64,000 bases of DNA, from contig NZ_CP044545.1 in assembly GCF_008935075.1 (NCBI RefSeq), positions 3,413,587 through 3,477,586 of the forward strand, in the 5' to 3' direction. A program made the translations under genes and the position numbers. This stretch comes from Pradoshia sp. D12 (GTDB lineage Bacteria; Bacillota; Bacilli; Bacillales; Pradoshiaceae). The notes under the pieces were generated by a model, which was given only the letters and a program-made list of their open reading frames with translations, did no database searches and was not told the origin of the DNA. Shown here one piece after another: positions 839 through 55,905 of the stretch; positions within the stretch are counted from its first letter, which is position 1; every line of letters begins with the position of its first letter.

Positions 839-989
839 AAAAAACCTCTTCACATAAGAAGAGGCAGGCATTTTCCATCTCTCCTTATCTCCCGGATTTA
901 TTTGTATCCGCAGGAATTGGCACCGTGTATTATAAAAATACCGGTTGCCGGGCTTCAACGGGCCAGTCCCTCCACCTCTCTTGATAAGA
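839..989 (-). promoter_or_regulatory. SAM-I (S-box) riboswitch with terminator
   Basis: On the minus strand the leader carries the S-box signatures: CTTATCAAGAGAGGTGGAGG at the 5' side, then GGCCC-TTGAAGCCCGGCAACC, and the 3' segment GGTGCCAATTCC-TGCGG, closing near GGAGAGATG. It is followed by an intrinsic terminator with arms 858-864 and 845-851 and a T-run over 839-844. High SAM stabilises the terminator and shuts off the sulfhydrylase gene. Confidence 0.95.
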
Positions 990-1010
990 ACCAAGTATTA
1001 AGTTGTTAAA

Positions 1011-14519: not shown

Positions 14520-14758
14520 AAGATAATATTTATGATGAAGAATAGTACTTAAAATACAAATTATAGCGAGCCGGGAATGGTGAGAGCCTGGTATTAATGG
14601 TTTTAAGGAACGCCCTTCTGAAATGCTCATTCGAACAACTTTAGTAGTTTGGGCCGGACTTTTCCGTTATAAAGTTAAGGTGGTTCATTAGAACAAGCAG
14701 AGTGGTACCGCGGGTTTACAGCCCGTCTCTTAAAGATTTTTAAGAGGCGGGCTTTTTT
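14520..14758 (+). promoter_or_regulatory. T-box leader of argS (Arg CGC specifier)
   Basis: tRNA-sensing leader. The GATGAAGA/AGTA elements of stem I begin near 14533. The specifier context GAA-CGC-CC puts the arginine codon CGC at 14611-14613. The conserved T-box AGAGTGGTACCGCGG spans about 14699-14713. The terminator has arms 14721-14732 and 14741-14752 followed by seven T. Uncharged tRNA-Arg is expected to promote readthrough into argS. Confidence 0.95.
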
Positions 14759-32570: not shown

Positions 32571-34031
32571 TTATTTCTCCGTTACTGTAACAGATACGGT
32601 TTTCTCCACTCCATTTCGATAAAGCTTGATTTTGACCTTATCTCCATTTGCAGCATTAGAATACAAGTATTTTCTGAACTCCCCAAGTGTAGTGACTTCC
32701 GCATCATTGATTGCCACTACCACGTCCTTAGCCTCTATACCTGCTTCAGCAGCGGGAGAACCGGTTTCCACCTGAGTTACTAACACTCCACTTGTTATCT
32801 CGGAAGGAAGATTCAATTGTTGCTGCAATACATATTGAGGTATTTCGGATATAGATTGCAAGCCTACACCAATATATGGACGTTGTACTTTTCCATCGGC
32901 AAGAAGGTCATTAACAATATCTGAAACATCCTTACTTGGAATAGCAAACCCTATTCCCTCAACCTCTTCAGATGATATTTTCATACTGTTGATACCAATA
33001 ACTTGTCCGTCGGAATTGACAAGCGCTCCGCCACTGTTCCCAGGGTTTATAGCTGCATCCGTTTGAATTGCATCCATATCCCATTCACCAGCAGATGTAG
33101 CAACCGTTACTGTACGCTGCAATCCGCTGATAATTCCCTGGGTTACGGACCCCGAGAAGTCAAGACCCAAAGGGTTACCTATTGCCAACACTGGTTCACC
33201 AACACTTAGCTTTTCAGAGTCTCCGAATTCGGCTACTTTTGTCACTTTGCTTCCATCAATTTTTAATACCGCCAAGTCTGTTAATGGATCTGTTCCAACC
33301 AGTTCAGCCGTTATCCTTGTACCTTCTGCCAAGGACACCTCAATAGTATCTGCATTCTCAATAACATGATTATTGGTCACAATAAATGCATCTTTTCCCG
33401 ATTTTTTGAAAATAACCCCAGAACCAGTCCCGCTCTCCTGGCTGTTATTGGACTCCTCATTGATTGTTGGTTGGCGGTAGTCATAGTAATTAGATGAGTT
33501 TTGTATATTCACTATACCTACAACCGCAGGAGAAACCTCCTCAATCATTTGAATTAGTTCAGAGGTTGTTTTCGTAGAGTCAACAATCTTCAGGCCATCC
33601 TCATCATTTACCTTATCATTTGTAGCAATGGCTGTTTTAACAGGTCCATCATCACCTGGCAGTACGCCTGATAAATCAACAAAACCTAAGTAAGAACCTG
33701 CTCCAAGTGCCACCATTCCACCAAGAATTGCGGTAATGACTGGTGTCAGCCATCTGGACCTTTTTTTCTTCTCTCTTTTAGATCTAACCTCTGCTTGATC
33801 ATCAGATGCTTGAAGCGGTTGTACTTCCACGCATTCATTTACTTGTTCATTATTTTCATCTGTCATATCTTCTTCCTTGGCAGAGCTTAGTTCATGATAT
33901 CCACGATATGAAATAATTTCTGTTTCAATATCTTTCTCATCTGGTAATGCAGGAATCTGAATATTATCCTGATTAGCAGTATCTATTGGTCTATCAAAAT
34001 CATCATAATCACGACGGTTATTGTTTTCCAT
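32571..34031 (-). CDS. membrane-anchored HtrA/DegP serine protease
   Basis: Envelope quality-control protease. 486 residues: acidic cytoplasmic N-terminus (1-90), one membrane helix (about 95-116), chymotrypsin-like domain with triad His222 (VTNNHVIE), Asp252 (TDLAVLKID) and Ser333 (NPGNSGGAL), and a C-terminal PDZ domain (about 395-475). ATG at 34031 has AGGAGAGG upstream; the GTG at 34049 precedes that site. Size and layout match B. subtilis HtrA/HtrB. No CssRS-type operator motif could be confirmed. Confidence 0.93.
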   Translation of the reverse strand: MENNNRRDYDDFDRPIDTANQDNIQIPALPDEKDIETEIISYRGYHELSSAKEEDMTDENNEQVNECVEVQPLQASDDQAEVRSKREKKKRSRWLTPVITAILGGMVALGAGSYLGFVDLSGVLPGDDGPVKTAIATNDKVNDEDGLKIVDSTKTTSELIQMIEEVSPAVVGIVNIQNSSNYYDYRQPTINEESNNSQESGTGSGVIFKKSGKDAFIVTNNHVIENADTIEVSLAEGTRITAELVGTDPLTDLAVLKIDGSKVTKVAEFGDSEKLSVGEPVLAIGNPLGLDFSGSVTQGIISGLQRTVTVATSAGEWDMDAIQTDAAINPGNSGGALVNSDGQVIGINSMKISSEEVEGIGFAIPSKDVSDIVNDLLADGKVQRPYIGVGLQSISEIPQYVLQQQLNLPSEITSGVLVTQVETGSPAAEAGIEAKDVVVAINDAEVTTLGEFRKYLYSNAANGDKVKIKLYRNGVEKTVSVTVTEK

Positions 34032-34178
34032 CCAAATTCCTCTCCTCACTCATTAAACTGTCTATTTAATATATTACGATAATTGTAGAATAATTGCATT
34101 TCTGCTCTTCTCACTATCTAATTTACTAACTGTATGTGTCAACAAAATGTCAAAATCTTTTCTCCTCTTAAAAAATTT

Positions 34179-34206
34179 AAAAGCTGCCTGTTCTTTGGCA
34201 GCTTTT
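34179..34206 (-). terminator. terminator downstream of the kinase gene and its repeat
   Basis: AAAAGCTGCC (34179-34188) / GGCAGCTTTT (34197-34206), T-rich on the minus strand. It lies past the inserted repeat element. Confidence 0.8.
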
Positions 34207-34227
34207 AAACATAATCATTATGTTCTG

Positions 34228-34441
34228 GGGGCCTACAGGATGTAGGCCACAAAGACGTTGCCACAGGACGTGGCGCTTTTAGTCTTCGTTCCTTAAACGA
34301 GGCTCTTCAGCACTATGGTAATCCGGCTTCAGAGCCTAGGAGTTCGGGACATAAGCATAGCCTCTTCGGGGAAGAACATCCCCTTCGAGCCTCTGTCTTA
34401 TGCTCCTCACTCCTGGGCAAGGCTCTTCAGCACTATGGTAA
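34228..34441 (-). repeat. palindromic repeat element inserted at the 3' end of the kinase gene, gene tail duplicated
   Basis: Two copies of a 21-nt stretch (34421-34441 inside the kinase gene, and 34301-34321 downstream; begins GGCTCTTCAGCACTATGG on the plus strand) lie exactly 120 bp apart. Between them is a long hairpin element (AGAGCCTAGGAGT ... ACTCCT-AGGCTCT) with GAGGAGCATAAGACAG and its counterpart CATAAGCATAGCC. Beyond the second copy come two small hairpins (34260-34274 and 34230-34248). The same modules in the same order occur after the rsgA-type gene at 55.1-55.9 kb. Confidence 0.85.
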
Positions 34442-35897
34442 ACGTTGTACCTTCTTCACTGCTATTCGTTAATACCAAATCTCCATCCATTGCATTGGCG
34501 AGCATTCTGCTGAATGGGAGTCCTAGTCCTAGACCGCGGATTTTGTATTTTTTATCTTCTCCTCGATAAAAACGTTCAAATATTAAATCCTGCTCGGCAA
34601 GCGGGATTCCCGAACCGCTGTCCTGTACATCGATTGCGACATGATCCTCATCATATTTATAAATACGGACCTCTATCGTTCCCTCTCCTTGAATAGCATG
34701 CTTGGAATTATTCAAGAGATTAATCATAATTTGCTGCAATCGCAGAGGGTCCGCCGATACTACCATATCTTCTTTTGGTTGCTGTACAGTAACTTTAACA
34801 AGTTGATCATCCTGCACAATATCCCATTGGTAAATCATTTCATTAATGACCTCACCAATTTTTACAGACTCTCTGTTAACAGGGATGGCATTGGCTGTAA
34901 AGGAGTTGAACTCCAATAAGTCTCCCACCATTTTTTGCATACGAGTCGTTTCCTGTAAGGATATGGCCAGAAACTCTTTTGCTTCTTCCCCTGTTACAAC
35001 TCCATCATTAACGGCTTGAAGCAAACCGCTGATAGACGTTACAGGCGTCTTTAATTCATGTGTTACACCTGCCAGCAATTCAGCTCGCATAGCTTCAAGC
35101 TGCTCCAATTTAATAGCCATTTCCTTAAAGGAATGGACTAAATCATAAACTTCCTGTTCATTTACCTCTTCAATAAGTTCAATATTATAATTTCCTTTTT
35201 GAACCTGCTTAGCTGCTTCAGCTACATTCTCAATCGGCTTAACCAGTCTTTTGGATAAAAAGTAAATCGCAACCCATCCGAGCAAGGCCAAACTTAAAAT
35301 CATAATCAAAAGTAATTTGTATTCCTGATCTACTGCAGTTAACTCATCCTCAGATTGCATAACGACAATCCAACTAATCACCGTATCATTCACAATCATA
35401 GGCCGCTTAACCAAATAATAATCTCTGCCACCAATATTGTTTAATTGTTTCACTTCATCCTTACTATTAAGCAGTGCAGTTGAAAATGAAGATACATTAA
35501 GGTGATTACTTGAACGATTCTCAATTACTATTTTTCCATTTACATCCACCACATAAATGGACGGATTGCCGCTGACCTCTAATAATTTTTTTCGATTGGC
35601 AAAAACCTCTGGATTCTGCTCTGTTTGAATATCAGTTCCAACCGTTTGATCCAGTATTCGCGCTGCTACTTCCTCAGCCAAATATTTATTAATATCCAGG
35701 TTCTTATTAAGAGTGGATTGCCTGATAATGATTCCTGTAAGGAATCCTATGACAATAAGTCCAATAAACAGGGTAACCAGATATCGTGTCGTCCAGTATT
35801 TCAACAAACTGACACGTTTAGTCGGATGGTTTTTCTTTTTTTGACCCAAGTGCTTCAGAAAATACATTTGCAGTTTATTATTTTTTTTCATAGACAC
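34407..35897 (-). CDS. sensor histidine kinase (YclK-like) of a two-component/ABC operon
   Basis: 496 residues: membrane helix near 32-54, extracytoplasmic sensor domain, second helix near 195-212, HAMP, HisKA with AGVTHELKTPVTS (His near 278), and HATPase boxes (LLNNSKHAI, DSGSGIP, RGLGLGLPFSRML). Start is GTG at 35897 or ATG at 35891, overlapping the response regulator by about 20 bp, so translation is coupled. The last codons (LAQE) are encoded by an inserted repeat; a duplicate tail downstream would end SLV-stop. Operon layout matches B. subtilis yclIHJK. Confidence 0.88.
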   Translation of the reverse strand: MSMKKNNKLQMYFLKHLGQKKKNHPTKRVSLLKYWTTRYLVTLFIGLIVIGFLTGIIIRQSTLNKNLDINKYLAEEVAARILDQTVGTDIQTEQNPEVFANRKKLLEVSGNPSIYVVDVNGKIVIENRSSNHLNVSSFSTALLNSKDEVKQLNNIGGRDYYLVKRPMIVNDTVISWIVVMQSEDELTAVDQEYKLLLIMILSLALLGWVAIYFLSKRLVKPIENVAEAAKQVQKGNYNIELIEEVNEQEVYDLVHSFKEMAIKLEQLEAMRAELLAGVTHELKTPVTSISGLLQAVNDGVVTGEEAKEFLAISLQETTRMQKMVGDLLEFNSFTANAIPVNRESVKIGEVINEMIYQWDIVQDDQLVKVTVQQPKEDMVVSADPLRLQQIMINLLNNSKHAIQGEGTIEVRIYKYDEDHVAIDVQDSGSGIPLAEQDLIFERFYRGEDKKYKIRGLGLGLPFSRMLANAMDGDLVLTNSSEEGTTFTIVLKSLAQE

Positions 35898-36567
35898 TTA
35901 ATTGATACCCCAATCCTCGCAGAGTTTTAATTTCTCCTTCAGATGCAGGCCAGTTTTGCAGAGACTTTCTCAGCCTTTTGATGGACAAATCTACCGCTCG
36001 GTCACTGCCGTCGTAATCCATCCCCCATACATGATCAATTAATTGATCTCTCGTAAATAATTGATTAGGATTTTGTGCCAAGAAGATGAGCAGTGAGAGA
36101 TCGCGCGGTGTTAAGTCAAGCTCTACTCCATTTAATGTAACATTATGAGCTTTCATATTAATGCACAACGCGCCAAACTGTTTCTTTTCCTTATCATCAA
36201 TGACCTGTCCAGATCTTCTCAATACTGCCTGGACACGGGCAACCACTTCATCTCCAATGAAGGGTTTAGTGATATAGTCGTCAGCTCCATCATTTAAGCC
36301 TGTGAGCTTGTAATTAATATCACCAAGTGCTGTGAGCATAATAACAGGGCATGCGCTTTTCGTACGAATTTCTTTTAATATATCCCATCCACTCATACCT
36401 GGAAGCATAACATCGAGCAAAACAAGATTCGGTTGAAACTCCTCAAATTTAGCAATGGCTTCACCACCTGTAAATACTTGTTCAACTTCGTAGTTTACTT
36501 TCTTCAAGTAAGCCTTTAAAACCTGGCTGATGGCTTTTTCATCTTCTACAATCATGATTTTTTGCAT
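35878..36567 (-). CDS. OmpR-family response regulator (YclJ-like)
   Basis: 229 residues: receiver domain with acidic pocket, phospho-acceptor Asp in NLVLLDVMLPGMSGW (about 53) and the K of DDYITKPF (about 103), then a winged-helix DNA-binding domain with LTPRDLSLLIFLAQNPNQLFTRDQL and VDLSIKRLRK. Paired with the overlapping kinase downstream; the ABC transporter genes precede it, so the pair probably controls that transporter. Confidence 0.92.
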   Translation of the reverse strand: MQKIMIVEDEKAISQVLKAYLKKVNYEVEQVFTGGEAIAKFEEFQPNLVLLDVMLPGMSGWDILKEIRTKSACPVIMLTALGDINYKLTGLNDGADDYITKPFIGDEVVARVQAVLRRSGQVIDDKEKKQFGALCINMKAHNVTLNGVELDLTPRDLSLLIFLAQNPNQLFTRDQLIDHVWGMDYDGSDRAVDLSIKRLRKSLQNWPASEGEIKTLRGLGYQLSVYEKK

Positions 36568-53907: not shown

Positions 53908-54040
53908 AATTCCTTTATTTTAACATGATTGAATTTGCATATTTCCGTGGGCTGTGTGCGCCCACGGTTTTTATTTGTCCGAATCTGTCTATAACACAGA
54001 AACGACATAAAGGAGACCAACGTATTTGGCCTCCTTTTTA
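53882..54040 (+). promoter_or_regulatory. attenuator: antiterminator segment plus two tandem terminators
   Basis: Terminator 1: CCGTGGGC (53945-53952) / GCCCACGG (53960-53967) then TTTTTATTT. CACAGCCC (53882-53889), inside the leader ORF, is the exact reverse complement of GGGCTGTG (53949-53956) and so can capture the terminator left arm. Terminator 2: AAAGGAG (54009-54015) / CTCCTTT (54031-54037) with inner CCAA/TTGG pairing, then TTATTTTG. A ribosome stalled early in the leader would leave 53882-53889 free, favouring readthrough; one translating through would cover it and favour termination. Confidence 0.75.
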
Positions 54041-54077
54041 TTTTGCAATCAAAAACAATCATTTGGAGGAATTTAAA

Positions 54078-55115
54078 TTGAATTTAAAACAATTAGGCTG
54101 GAATAAACATTTTGAAGAAGCTTTCAAACAATATAGCAATAAAGAATATACAGTAGGCCGTATAGCTTTGGAGCATAAAGGTATGTATCGTGTTTTCTCA
54201 GCTGATGGTAATCTTTTAGCTGAAGTTACAGGCAAAATGCGTCATGAAGCAAAGGAAAGCTCAGATTTTCCTGCAGTCGGTGATTGGGTTACCATCACTT
54301 CCCGAAAAGATGAGCAAAAAGCAACCATCCACGCCGTACTGCCAAGAAAAAGTAAATTCTCAAGAAAGAAAGCTGGAGTGACAACTGAAGAGCAACTTGT
54401 CGCAGCCAATATCGATACCATTTTCTTAGTCAATGCACTAAACACCGATTTTAATATGCGCAGGCTGGAACGTTACTTATTGATGGCTTGGGAAAGCGGA
54501 GCAAATCCTGTCATTATTTTAAGCAAATCTGATTTATGTGATGATGTTGATCAAAAAATCAGAGAAGTAGAGGCAATCGCATTAGGTGTACCCATTCATG
54601 CTATCAGTGCGGAAAACAGGATGGGTTTAGAGCAATTAGACCCTTATATCCAAGAAGGTAAAACAGTTGCTTTACTTGGTTCATCTGGTACCGGTAAATC
54701 AACATTAACAAATGTACTATACGGCGACAGCATCCTAGAGGTTAAATCCATTCGGAAAGATGATGATAAAGGGAGACACACAACTACACACCGAGAACTA
54801 GTTATCCTTAATGGAGGAGGGATCATAATTGATACTCCCGGAATGAGGGAATTACAATTATGGGAAGCCGACGAAGGAATCAGTCATAGTTTCACTGATA
54901 TAGAAGAATTAGCTTCACAATGTAAATTCACAGACTGTAAACACAAAACCGAACCAAGTTGCGCAGTACAGGAGGCAATATCCAATAAAACGCTGAGTAA
55001 AGAACGCTTTGCCAGTTACCTAAAACTCCAACGCGAACTCGCCTACCTAAACCGAAAAGAAAACCAACGCGCCGCACTCGCGGAAAAAGCTAAATGGAAA
55101 AAAACAAAAGGCTGA
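54078..55115 (+). CDS. RsgA-type circularly permuted ribosome GTPase
   Basis: GTPase of the RsgA/YjeQ family, which checks 30S subunit assembly. TTG start at 54078 with GGAGGA seven bases upstream; 345 residues, longer at the N-terminus than housekeeping RsgA (about 295). OB-fold region about 45-110, then permuted G motifs: G4 LSKSDL near 152, G1 GSSGTGKST near 200, switch RHTTTHREL, G3 DTPGM near 251, and the zinc site CKFTDCKHKTEPSC near 284-297. It is probably a paralogue of the housekeeping gene (no prpC/prkC or rpe nearby). Expression is gated by the upstream attenuator. The 3' end abuts a tandem repeat array. Confidence 0.9.
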   Translation: MNLKQLGWNKHFEEAFKQYSNKEYTVGRIALEHKGMYRVFSADGNLLAEVTGKMRHEAKESSDFPAVGDWVTITSRKDEQKATIHAVLPRKSKFSRKKAGVTTEEQLVAANIDTIFLVNALNTDFNMRRLERYLLMAWESGANPVIILSKSDLCDDVDQKIREVEAIALGVPIHAISAENRMGLEQLDPYIQEGKTVALLGSSGTGKSTLTNVLYGDSILEVKSIRKDDDKGRHTTTHRELVILNGGGIIIDTPGMRELQLWEADEGISHSFTDIEELASQCKFTDCKHKTEPSCAVQEAISNKTLSKERFASYLKLQRELAYLNRKENQRAALAEKAKWKKTKG

Positions 55116-55905
55116 AGGGCCCCGCTCAGCCGCGACAAGCGTAAGAAGAGGCGCGCAGGGAGAACGATTCTTCCTCCCGTAGCGGCTAGGCCCTGAAGCT
55201 AGATTAAGCAAAAAGCGGAGACGGCTTGCCCAGAAGCGAGGAGCATAAGACAGGAACTCGGAAGGAGGTGTTCTCCCTCCTGTAGAGTTCATACTTATGT
55301 CCTGAGCTTCTAGCCGTCGAAGCTAGATTAAAACAAAAGGCTGAAACGACTGGGTTAAGGATCGAAGACTAAGTTCGCCACATCCTGTGGCAACGTCTTC
55401 GTGACCTACATCCTGTAGGCCTCCGACAAGCATAAGAGGAGTCATGTAGGGAGGCGCTCTATAAAGGACCAAAGGCTATGGGCGCCACGTCCTGTGGCAA
55501 CGCCTTTGTGACCTACATCCTGTAGGCCTCCGAAGTGGCTATCCTTATGACTCGAGGGACTAGGAGTTGAAGCTGGATTAAAACAAAAAGCTGAGACGAC
55601 TTGCCCAGAAGCGAGGAGCATAAGACAGGGGCTCGGAAGGAGGTGTTTTTTCCTCCTGCAGAGACCATGCTTATGTCCTGAGCTTCTAGCCGTCGAAGCT
55701 AGATTAAGCAAAAAGATGAAGGGCCTAGCTCAGGAGCGAGGAGCATAAGACAGGAGCTCGGAAGGAGGTGTTCTCCCTCCTGTAGAGGTCATGCTTATGT
55801 CCTGAGCTCCTAGGCCCTGAATCTGGATTAAGCAAAAGGCTGAAGGGCTGGGTTAAGGAACGAAGACTAAATTCGCCACATCCTGTGGTAATGTCATCGT
55901 TCTTT
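55101..55905 (+). repeat. tandem array of palindromic elements separated by copies of the rsgA-type gene tail
   Basis: The gene tail AAAACAAAAGGCTGAA (55101-55116, containing the stop) recurs at 55330-55345 exactly, and as variants TTAARCAAAARG at 55204, 55580, 55704 and 55828. Between copies lie GC-rich long hairpins of about 100 bp (e.g. GACGGCT 55220-55226 / AGCCGTC 55312-55318; AGGGCCTA 55720-55727 / TAGGCCCT 55811-55818) with conserved GAGGAGCATAAGACAGG and CATGCTTATGTCCTGAGC. The 55330-55576 unit is larger and holds two copies of a two-hairpin module. The array ends within a partial module near 55905. Confidence 0.9.
55376..55532. repeat. two copies of a two-hairpin module
   Basis: CGCCACRTCCTGTGGCAACG followed by YCTTYGTGACC-TACATCCTGTAGGCCTCCG at 55377-55426 and 55483-55532. 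Each contains the small hairpins GCCACNTCCTGTGGC and CCTACATCCTGTAGG. A further copy is at 34230-34275 (minus) and a partial one at 55874-55896. Confidence 0.85.

Follow-up and report, generated by a model that had tools for sequence, protein, structure and literature searches.

A target-duplicating hairpin repeat as the probable origin of a histidine kinase gene end in Pradoshia sp. D12

The odd 3′ end of a sensor histidine kinase gene in Pradoshia sp. D12 can be explained by a repeat that is common in Bacillales, unnamed as far as our searches went, and has inserted there. We consider it likely that this gene end consists of a MITE-like hairpin of Bacillales, here called B, inserted with duplication of its target, together with Bacillaceae-1, here called A, and that arrays of such units arise by repeated insertion. 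The kinase, RsgA, PrmC and other proteins take their stop codon and a short new tail from these repeats. Positions refer to the window, the whole stretch of 64,000 nucleotides analysed.

The 3′ end of the kinase gene

The kinase ORF (34407..35897, minus strand; 496 amino acids) ends TIVLKSLAQE, with its stop codon at 34407-34409. Positions 34300-34321 and 34420-34441 form an exact direct repeat of 22 nt (100% identity, spacing 120), which reads TTACCATAGTGCTGAAGAGCCT on the minus strand. A preliminary description of this DNA had noted the exact copy 120 bp downstream correctly but gave its length as 21 nt, and took it to be kinase sequence. In fact it comprises 10 nt of kinase, representing a copy of the target, and 12 nt of element head, because the GCTGAAG within it belongs to the element: the element itself begins with GCTGA(A/G)(A/G), exactly so in 52 of the 61 units parsed. 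A search with the 13-mer GGCTCTTCAGCAC, allowing up to two mismatches, found two matches, an unremarkable count that was equalled in 19 of 100 shuffles.

In the direction of the gene, all on the minus strand, the layout is as follows. The kinase is homologous to its relatives up to L490 (34428-34430), and KSLAQE-stop (34407-34427) is encoded by the element. The first target copy, TTACCATAGT (34432..34441), consists of kinase codons from the FTIV region, which is similar in relatives. It is followed by the B unit, a 111-nt hairpin running from the head GCTGAAGAGCC to the tail GAAGCCGGAT (34321..34431), which scores 117.2 bits against a B model built partly from that same unit. The second target copy, again TTACCATAGT (34312..34321), lies between the B unit and the next head, and its first T is shared with the B tail. 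The head GCTGAAGAGCCT of a terminal A-type unit (34300..34311) completes the second 22-nt repeat, and leads into the A module (34232..34298), which matches the Rfam family RF01690, Bacillaceae-1 RNA, at 77.1 bits against a gathering cut-off of 35. The locus thus contains two units of different type, B and then head plus A. A terminator-like inverted repeat, TTTAAAAGCTGCC..GGCAGCTTTTAAATTTTTT, was seen by eye 3′ of the array (34170..34210). The segment 34325-34435, offset by 4 nt from the B unit, has a folding energy of -57 kcal/mol (z = -6.8 against 200 shuffles), while the A module folded alone is only weakly better than shuffles (z = -2.2).

Read in the kinase frame, the downstream copy does give TIVLKSLV followed by TAA (34293-34295), as previously described. 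This was interpreted as the stranded ancestral tail, an interpretation that we do not retain: the sequence after TTACCATAGT is the head GCTGAAGAGCCT running into the 5′ end of A, TTTAAGGAACGAAGAC, as it does at other loci, and the TAA lies inside the A module.

A search of 61 genomes with the kinase gave some match in all 61, and we compared the ends of 16 close homologues (40-72% identical, the gene itself being left out). The C-terminus is LP (13) or IP (1) plus a short tail in 14 of the 16, and neither in the other two. None of the 16 ends in SLV, as orthologues had been expected to do, and none ends in LAQE, an ending that the preliminary description had named as contrary evidence if found without the repeat; the nearest is a 54% identical relative ending LPLNQE. 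Alignment to the relatives stops at query residue 490 in 13 cases, at 491 in two and at 487 in one, and the codon of residue 490 is the CTG inside GCTGAAG. We therefore conclude that KSLAQE is element-encoded, and that an element of a dispersed family does lie at the very end of the ORF and has rewritten its C-terminus, as first suggested. By residue 490 the alignment to several NCBIfam kinase profiles has come close to the profile end, so that the catalytic domain looks complete; the kinase presumably still works. A scan of genome contigs with the kinase found no relative. As a candidate for the real old tail we considered VLPRT*, read after A from the joined flanks, but a similar reading arises in 979 of 5000 shuffled right flanks and it is therefore not evidence.

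The kinase can be named no more closely than its family, no cut-off being reached among the best 25 of 82 NCBIfam matches. Genes for a response regulator, the kinase and an HtrA-type protease are consecutive (32571-36567, minus strand), with the element between the kinase and the protease gene, and the neighbourhood may represent a CssRS-HtrA-like set. The window also holds three further RF01690 matches, and strong Rfam matches to a T-box leader (14523-14733, plus strand) and a SAM riboswitch (882-990, minus strand).

Units, target copies and arrays in the genome

Searches of the genome (G000) gave 60 BLAST matches to the element, 46 matches to RF01690 (45 of them above the cut-off) and 68 to the B covariance model. 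All 46 A and 68 B matches fall in 29 loci, of which 28 hold a B-model match. We read 26 of these arrays, two of them in the window, and later three more. The usual plan is a repeated spacer-B followed by a spacer and a unit with A, often the last in the array; by eye, the last part of 14 of the 26 arrays is an A module, bare or decayed, with no target copy after it. The array loci are not evenly spread, and a 1.43-Mb stretch (1.36-2.79 Mb, 36% of the genome) has none, and when 29 places were drawn at random, 17 of 200000 sets had a gap as large. Of the 11 arrays to one side of this stretch, 10 have minus-strand orientation.

The arrays were parsed into 61 full units, of which 39 lack A. The B alignment and model were made from 37 of these 39, after removal of an exact duplicate and of L036_2, which has a truncated tail. 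The aligned units are 109-116 nt long. Their ends pair as GCU/AGC and the next stem covaries, so that terminal inverted repeats of the MITE kind are present; the consensus fold has 26 pairs, 15 of which show compensatory two-sided changes among the 37 units. An ungapped comparison of units with and without A, which could not split several of them sensibly (for example L037_3 and L042_1), places A either in the apical loop of B or in its 5′ arm, where it substitutes for 9 nt in L035_2. Three units hold two A modules. One of the units in the array at rsgA (55353-55526) carries a Bacillaceae-1 module in its 5′ arm and another in its loop, and the same is seen in two units of L040.

The spacers between units repeat the host flank of their own locus. 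The host part that is copied consists of the 5-11 nt before GCTGA(A/G)(A/G), and differs by locus: TTACCATAGT, ACGAAAA, GACAACCAAAA, TATAGT. Using a table of spacers and flanks made by hand, we compared the first spacer with its own flank at 23 of the 26 loci, omitting L037, L038 and L045, in which the first unit is partial, single or atypical. The mean suffix match is 5.3 nt, compared with 2.04 nt for shuffled loci, and none of 20000 permutations was as good; the match is at least 5 nt in 17 of the 23. Five of the 23 have no suffix match at the last base: L035, L041 and R have A against G, L033 has an added G, and L034 fails outright. L036 matches over 3 nt, and its array has AAAATAAAAA on both flanks by eye. 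Many flanks are A-rich and many spacers are close in sequence to TAAAAA, where matches are cheap; no common consensus explains the kinase TACCATAGT, TATAGT in L048, ACGAAAA in L044 and GACAACCAAAA in L039, and at the kinase the 9-10 nt copied are codons of the FTIV stretch. The length of the target copy is variable, and later spacers in L042, L046, L048 and L050 no longer match the flank.

We propose that B would be a non-autonomous transposable hairpin, with imperfect terminal inverted repeats and a preference for A-rich sites at gene ends. It would insert with duplication of a target of about 5-11 nt, often landing at or just after a gene's stop codon and in the sense direction of that gene. 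Arrays would grow as further, different B copies enter the same junction of target and head, the target being copied each time; at the kinase, the A-type unit would then be the older and B the newer. A transposase or another enzyme would carry out the insertion in trans. A pattern search of this genome with head and tail revealed neither a transposase nor a long element that shares these ends: all 15 head matches are in known loci, as are 65 of 67 tail matches, and the remaining two tails are one-mismatch matches elsewhere.

Gene ends, congeners and spread in Bacillales

The arrays favour gene 3′ ends. In a scripted count, 9 of 26 arrays lie at a co-oriented stop against an expected 12.6% (p = 0.003), where reading frames had at least 90 codons, the array had to start between 25 nt after and 40 nt before the stop, and the expectation is the share of allowed positions calculated from the 51 ORFs called in the window. 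Hand curation places 14 of 26 at gene ends (p = 5e-7) by adding L033, L035, L040, L043 and L047, of which L035 and L043 concern short ORFs and L040 is outside the strict range. With L230 the count is 15 of 29, which leaves about half of the loci elsewhere. The preliminary description had proposed that a scan of genome copies against stop codons would reveal such a preference, and specifically for gene ends containing GCTGAAG; the preference for gene 3′ ends is supported, while the supposed target motif is the element's own end.

In three other genera (G039, G021 and G011), 12 of 60 copies begin 3-9 nt beyond a co-oriented stop, where the layout of this window would predict 1.5%; the 60 stretches are the best-scoring among the places listed, with neighbours merged and two G011 places passed over. 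In G021, TAAGAAAA precedes 13 of 20 copies and AAGAAAA precedes 19 of 20. Because TAAGAAAA is there whether or not the copy is at a gene end, the stop and flank in this genome may come with the element or be a preferred target. The same sequence precedes 3 of 20 copies in G039 and 2 of 20 in G011.

Since the head (xGCTGA..) carries early stops, an insertion a few codons before a stop would leave a short new tail, such as KSLAQE* in the kinase. The stop is immediate in one frame (xGC TGA) and usually comes within about 12 codons in the others; in L040, the reading runs 67 nt into the element. The gene for an RsgA-type GTPase (53925..55115, plus strand) behaves like the kinase, as had been noted: its last residue and stop (G, TGA; stop at 55113-55115) are supplied by the head of a multi-unit array of the same family (55111..55904, plus strand), identified by the B model and RF01690. 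The array has B matches at 55111-55204, 55215-55328, 55405-55578, 55590-55704 and 55715-55828, and A modules at 55353-55419, 55460-55526 and 55851-55904. The protein ends KTKG*, where relatives have QRRR* or QKRR*. Similarly, PrmC ends GEIKS* (relatives AEIKE* or AVIKE*), and the element encodes the ends NLKG* in an HTH gene, LKGLDQE* in a glxK-like gene and SAEATGQLRQA* in a FecE-like gene. In the era, nif3-like and qoxD-type genes the stop is intact and the array lies 3′ of it.

Two congeneric genomes were compared using the B model and Rfam. Neither has B or A at its kinase locus, in agreement with the expectation that orthologues lack the element, and the same is true for 8 of 9 other genes compared (16 loci): era, nif3-like, fecE-like, rsgA, prmC, glxK-like, HTH and qoxD-type, with orthology less sure for the FecE-like and glycerate-kinase-like genes. 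Five gene-end arrays (L035, L040, L043, L046 and L230) were left out of this comparison. The ninth gene is pheT, whose loci in both congeners hold B and A, which implies that some insertions are older than the species split. An array at the pheT 3′ end is common to three species of the genus (L045 in G000, L086/L097 in G001 and L098 in G002), and is an old insertion at the gene's stop that has probably been passed on vertically.

Counting this genome, B matches occur in 88 of 120 genomes and 53 of 74 genera, and A matches in 63 of 120 genomes and 43 of 74 genera. Copies per genome within the order range from zero to at least 38 for A and from zero to at least 31 for B. In the three other genera B has the form GCGGAAGCGCC..GGCGCTGGAGCTAGAC or close to it. 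By eye, many B copies in G021 (L190-L209) continue with a similar tail, ACTAAAACTGAGT..ACTTTCTTATC, and a few in G039 (L170-L189) continue with GTCGACTACCTTGTATGAAC; these are perhaps genus-specific 3′ modules. The 213-nt stretch had no match in a plasmid collection.

A is also found inside hairpins other than B. Another hairpin repeat, in G091, has at least six full-length copies without A and at least seven that a gap of 60-100 nt divides in two (40 of 53 candidates scored); direct comparison of copies shows that in L136 A occupies the place of AAGCGACG, which otherwise stands between GAGCGA and AGGAGGCTCC. A further repeat, in G096, has at least 18 full-length copies without A and at least ten split copies (40 of 190 candidates scored); here L243 and L241 have a plain loop, and in L141 (the same place as L239) the loop is replaced by A. 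Rfam matches A in L136, L141/L239, L129/L240 and L242, and not in L233, L235, L237, L241, L243 or L244. The B model has no match in the G091 and G096 hairpins (11 loci, L244 left out). We also calculated the duplex energy of the sequences flanking A at 16 other loci, as a sign of A at a hairpin apex, and 1 of 16 reached z <= -3; the claim of loop replacement therefore rests on the direct comparisons in G000, G091 and G096. G119 offered no A-less partner for such a comparison, and L244 was without a seed.

Because A replaces loops of non-B hairpins in two genomes, the "Bacillaceae-1 sRNA" appears to be at least partly a nested repeat module, which suggests that its counts, and guesses at its function, need care. 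We put forward more tentatively, as an idea that we hold to be somewhat less probable than not, that Bacillaceae-1 is a second-order mobile module of 67 nt, which replaces apical loops or an arm position of unrelated Bacillales hairpin repeats; its B host would meanwhile spread through insertions at gene ends that duplicate the target, and would form arrays by entering its own junction again, giving many proteins element-encoded C-termini. As a guess, recombination or template switching at hairpins might account for the way in which A changes loops.

Alternative explanations and known systems

An alternative that is compatible with insertion is that the elements are selected RNAs of the 3′ UTR (a terminator, a stabiliser or a protein-binding site such as a CsrA sponge), with mobility incidental. 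This is possible, though we think it doubtful. The stem covaries across the whole B unit, the units are in sense orientation at gene ends, and RF01690 is curated as an sRNA whose reverse complement is reported to match a CsrA-binding motif. However, about half of the loci are away from co-oriented gene ends, congeners lack the element at 8 of 9 genes compared, the number of copies varies widely within the order, and compensatory changes could also be produced by hairpin correction during replication.

Local tandem duplication or replication slippage, in which one unit and its flank are duplicated in place and no transposition occurs, is unlikely. Heads mostly vary from unit to unit, but the two kinase copies share one and the same 12-nt head within the repeat, and this would also fit a longer local duplication at the kinase locus alone. 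L039 and L043 contain local unit duplications, with identical or near-identical units in one array. Nevertheless, mean B divergence within loci (0.26, 23 pairs) is close to that between loci (0.28, 718 pairs), and only 5 of 25 B units have their nearest relative in the same locus, yet the spacers are locus-specific; at the kinase, moreover, the two units differ in type. From the combination of locus-specific spacers and divergent units we conclude that repeated insertion, not slippage, is the main rule, with L039 and L043 as partial exceptions.

Slightly less probable again is single-strand, hairpin-directed transposition of the IS200/IS605 or REP/RAYT type in place of a target-duplicating transposase. 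The long hairpin, the small size, the tandem or nested copies, and, in another genus, a short sequence conserved just 5′ of the foot would all suit it, but the spacers copy locus-specific sequence, which neither system is known to yield. REP/RAYT repeats are described as palindromes tagged at one end by GTAG or CGTC (PMC3733652). The foot here is GCTG/GCGG-like, all 37 aligned units beginning GCTG, GCTA, GCGG or GATG and ending GAT or GAC, and we do not assign them to that class. Finally, insertion into the GCTGAAG of a kinase ending in SLV, with the old tail left downstream, is barely credible: its reading-frame arithmetic is correct, but SLV-TAA is head plus the Bacillaceae-1 5′ end, the same at other loci, and no relative compared ends in this way.

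Target-duplicating insertion of B thus being preferred, it can be set beside systems already described. In the open-access literature, as far as its accessible parts go, we recognised no description of the B family and no treatment of A as a nested module. Bacillaceae-1 (RF01690) was published as an RNA that is probably not cis-regulatory (Weinberg 2010, PMC2864571). Rfam lists it as an sRNA gene, CsrA binding has been proposed for its other strand, and it has been counted with the most abundant sRNA families without being given a function. In the genomes studied here, by contrast, it belongs to dispersed composite repeats and takes the place of loops in other hairpin repeats. Bhal-1 and Bcr1 of Bacillus, as far as published description allows comparison (PMC2267715, in part), are intergenic stem-loop repeats, and Bhal-1, at 74 bp, is about the size of A. 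Bacterial MITEs resemble B in being small, non-coding and present in many copies, with imperfect terminal inverted repeats and target copies, but differ in that B has no matching transposon ends in this genome and a variable length of target copy.

The pneumococcal BOX elements and MITEs appear to be the closest analogue in behaviour. According to the part of the account available to us (PMC3049150), BOX, with RUP and SPRITE, comprises short modular non-coding repeats of Streptococcus with tandem inner modules, terminal inverted repeats and target duplications; repeats of this type insert into one another, and many are at the extreme 3′ ends of genes, where they supply the stop in 36 cases. 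On this published description, BOX and the B/A repeats are alike in modularity, target copies, nesting and the supply of stop codons at gene ends. BOX differs in belonging to another genus, in its module sizes and in its arrangement of boxA and boxC around boxB, whereas in the repeats described here whole B units recur with spacers copied from the host, and the inner module is an Rfam family.
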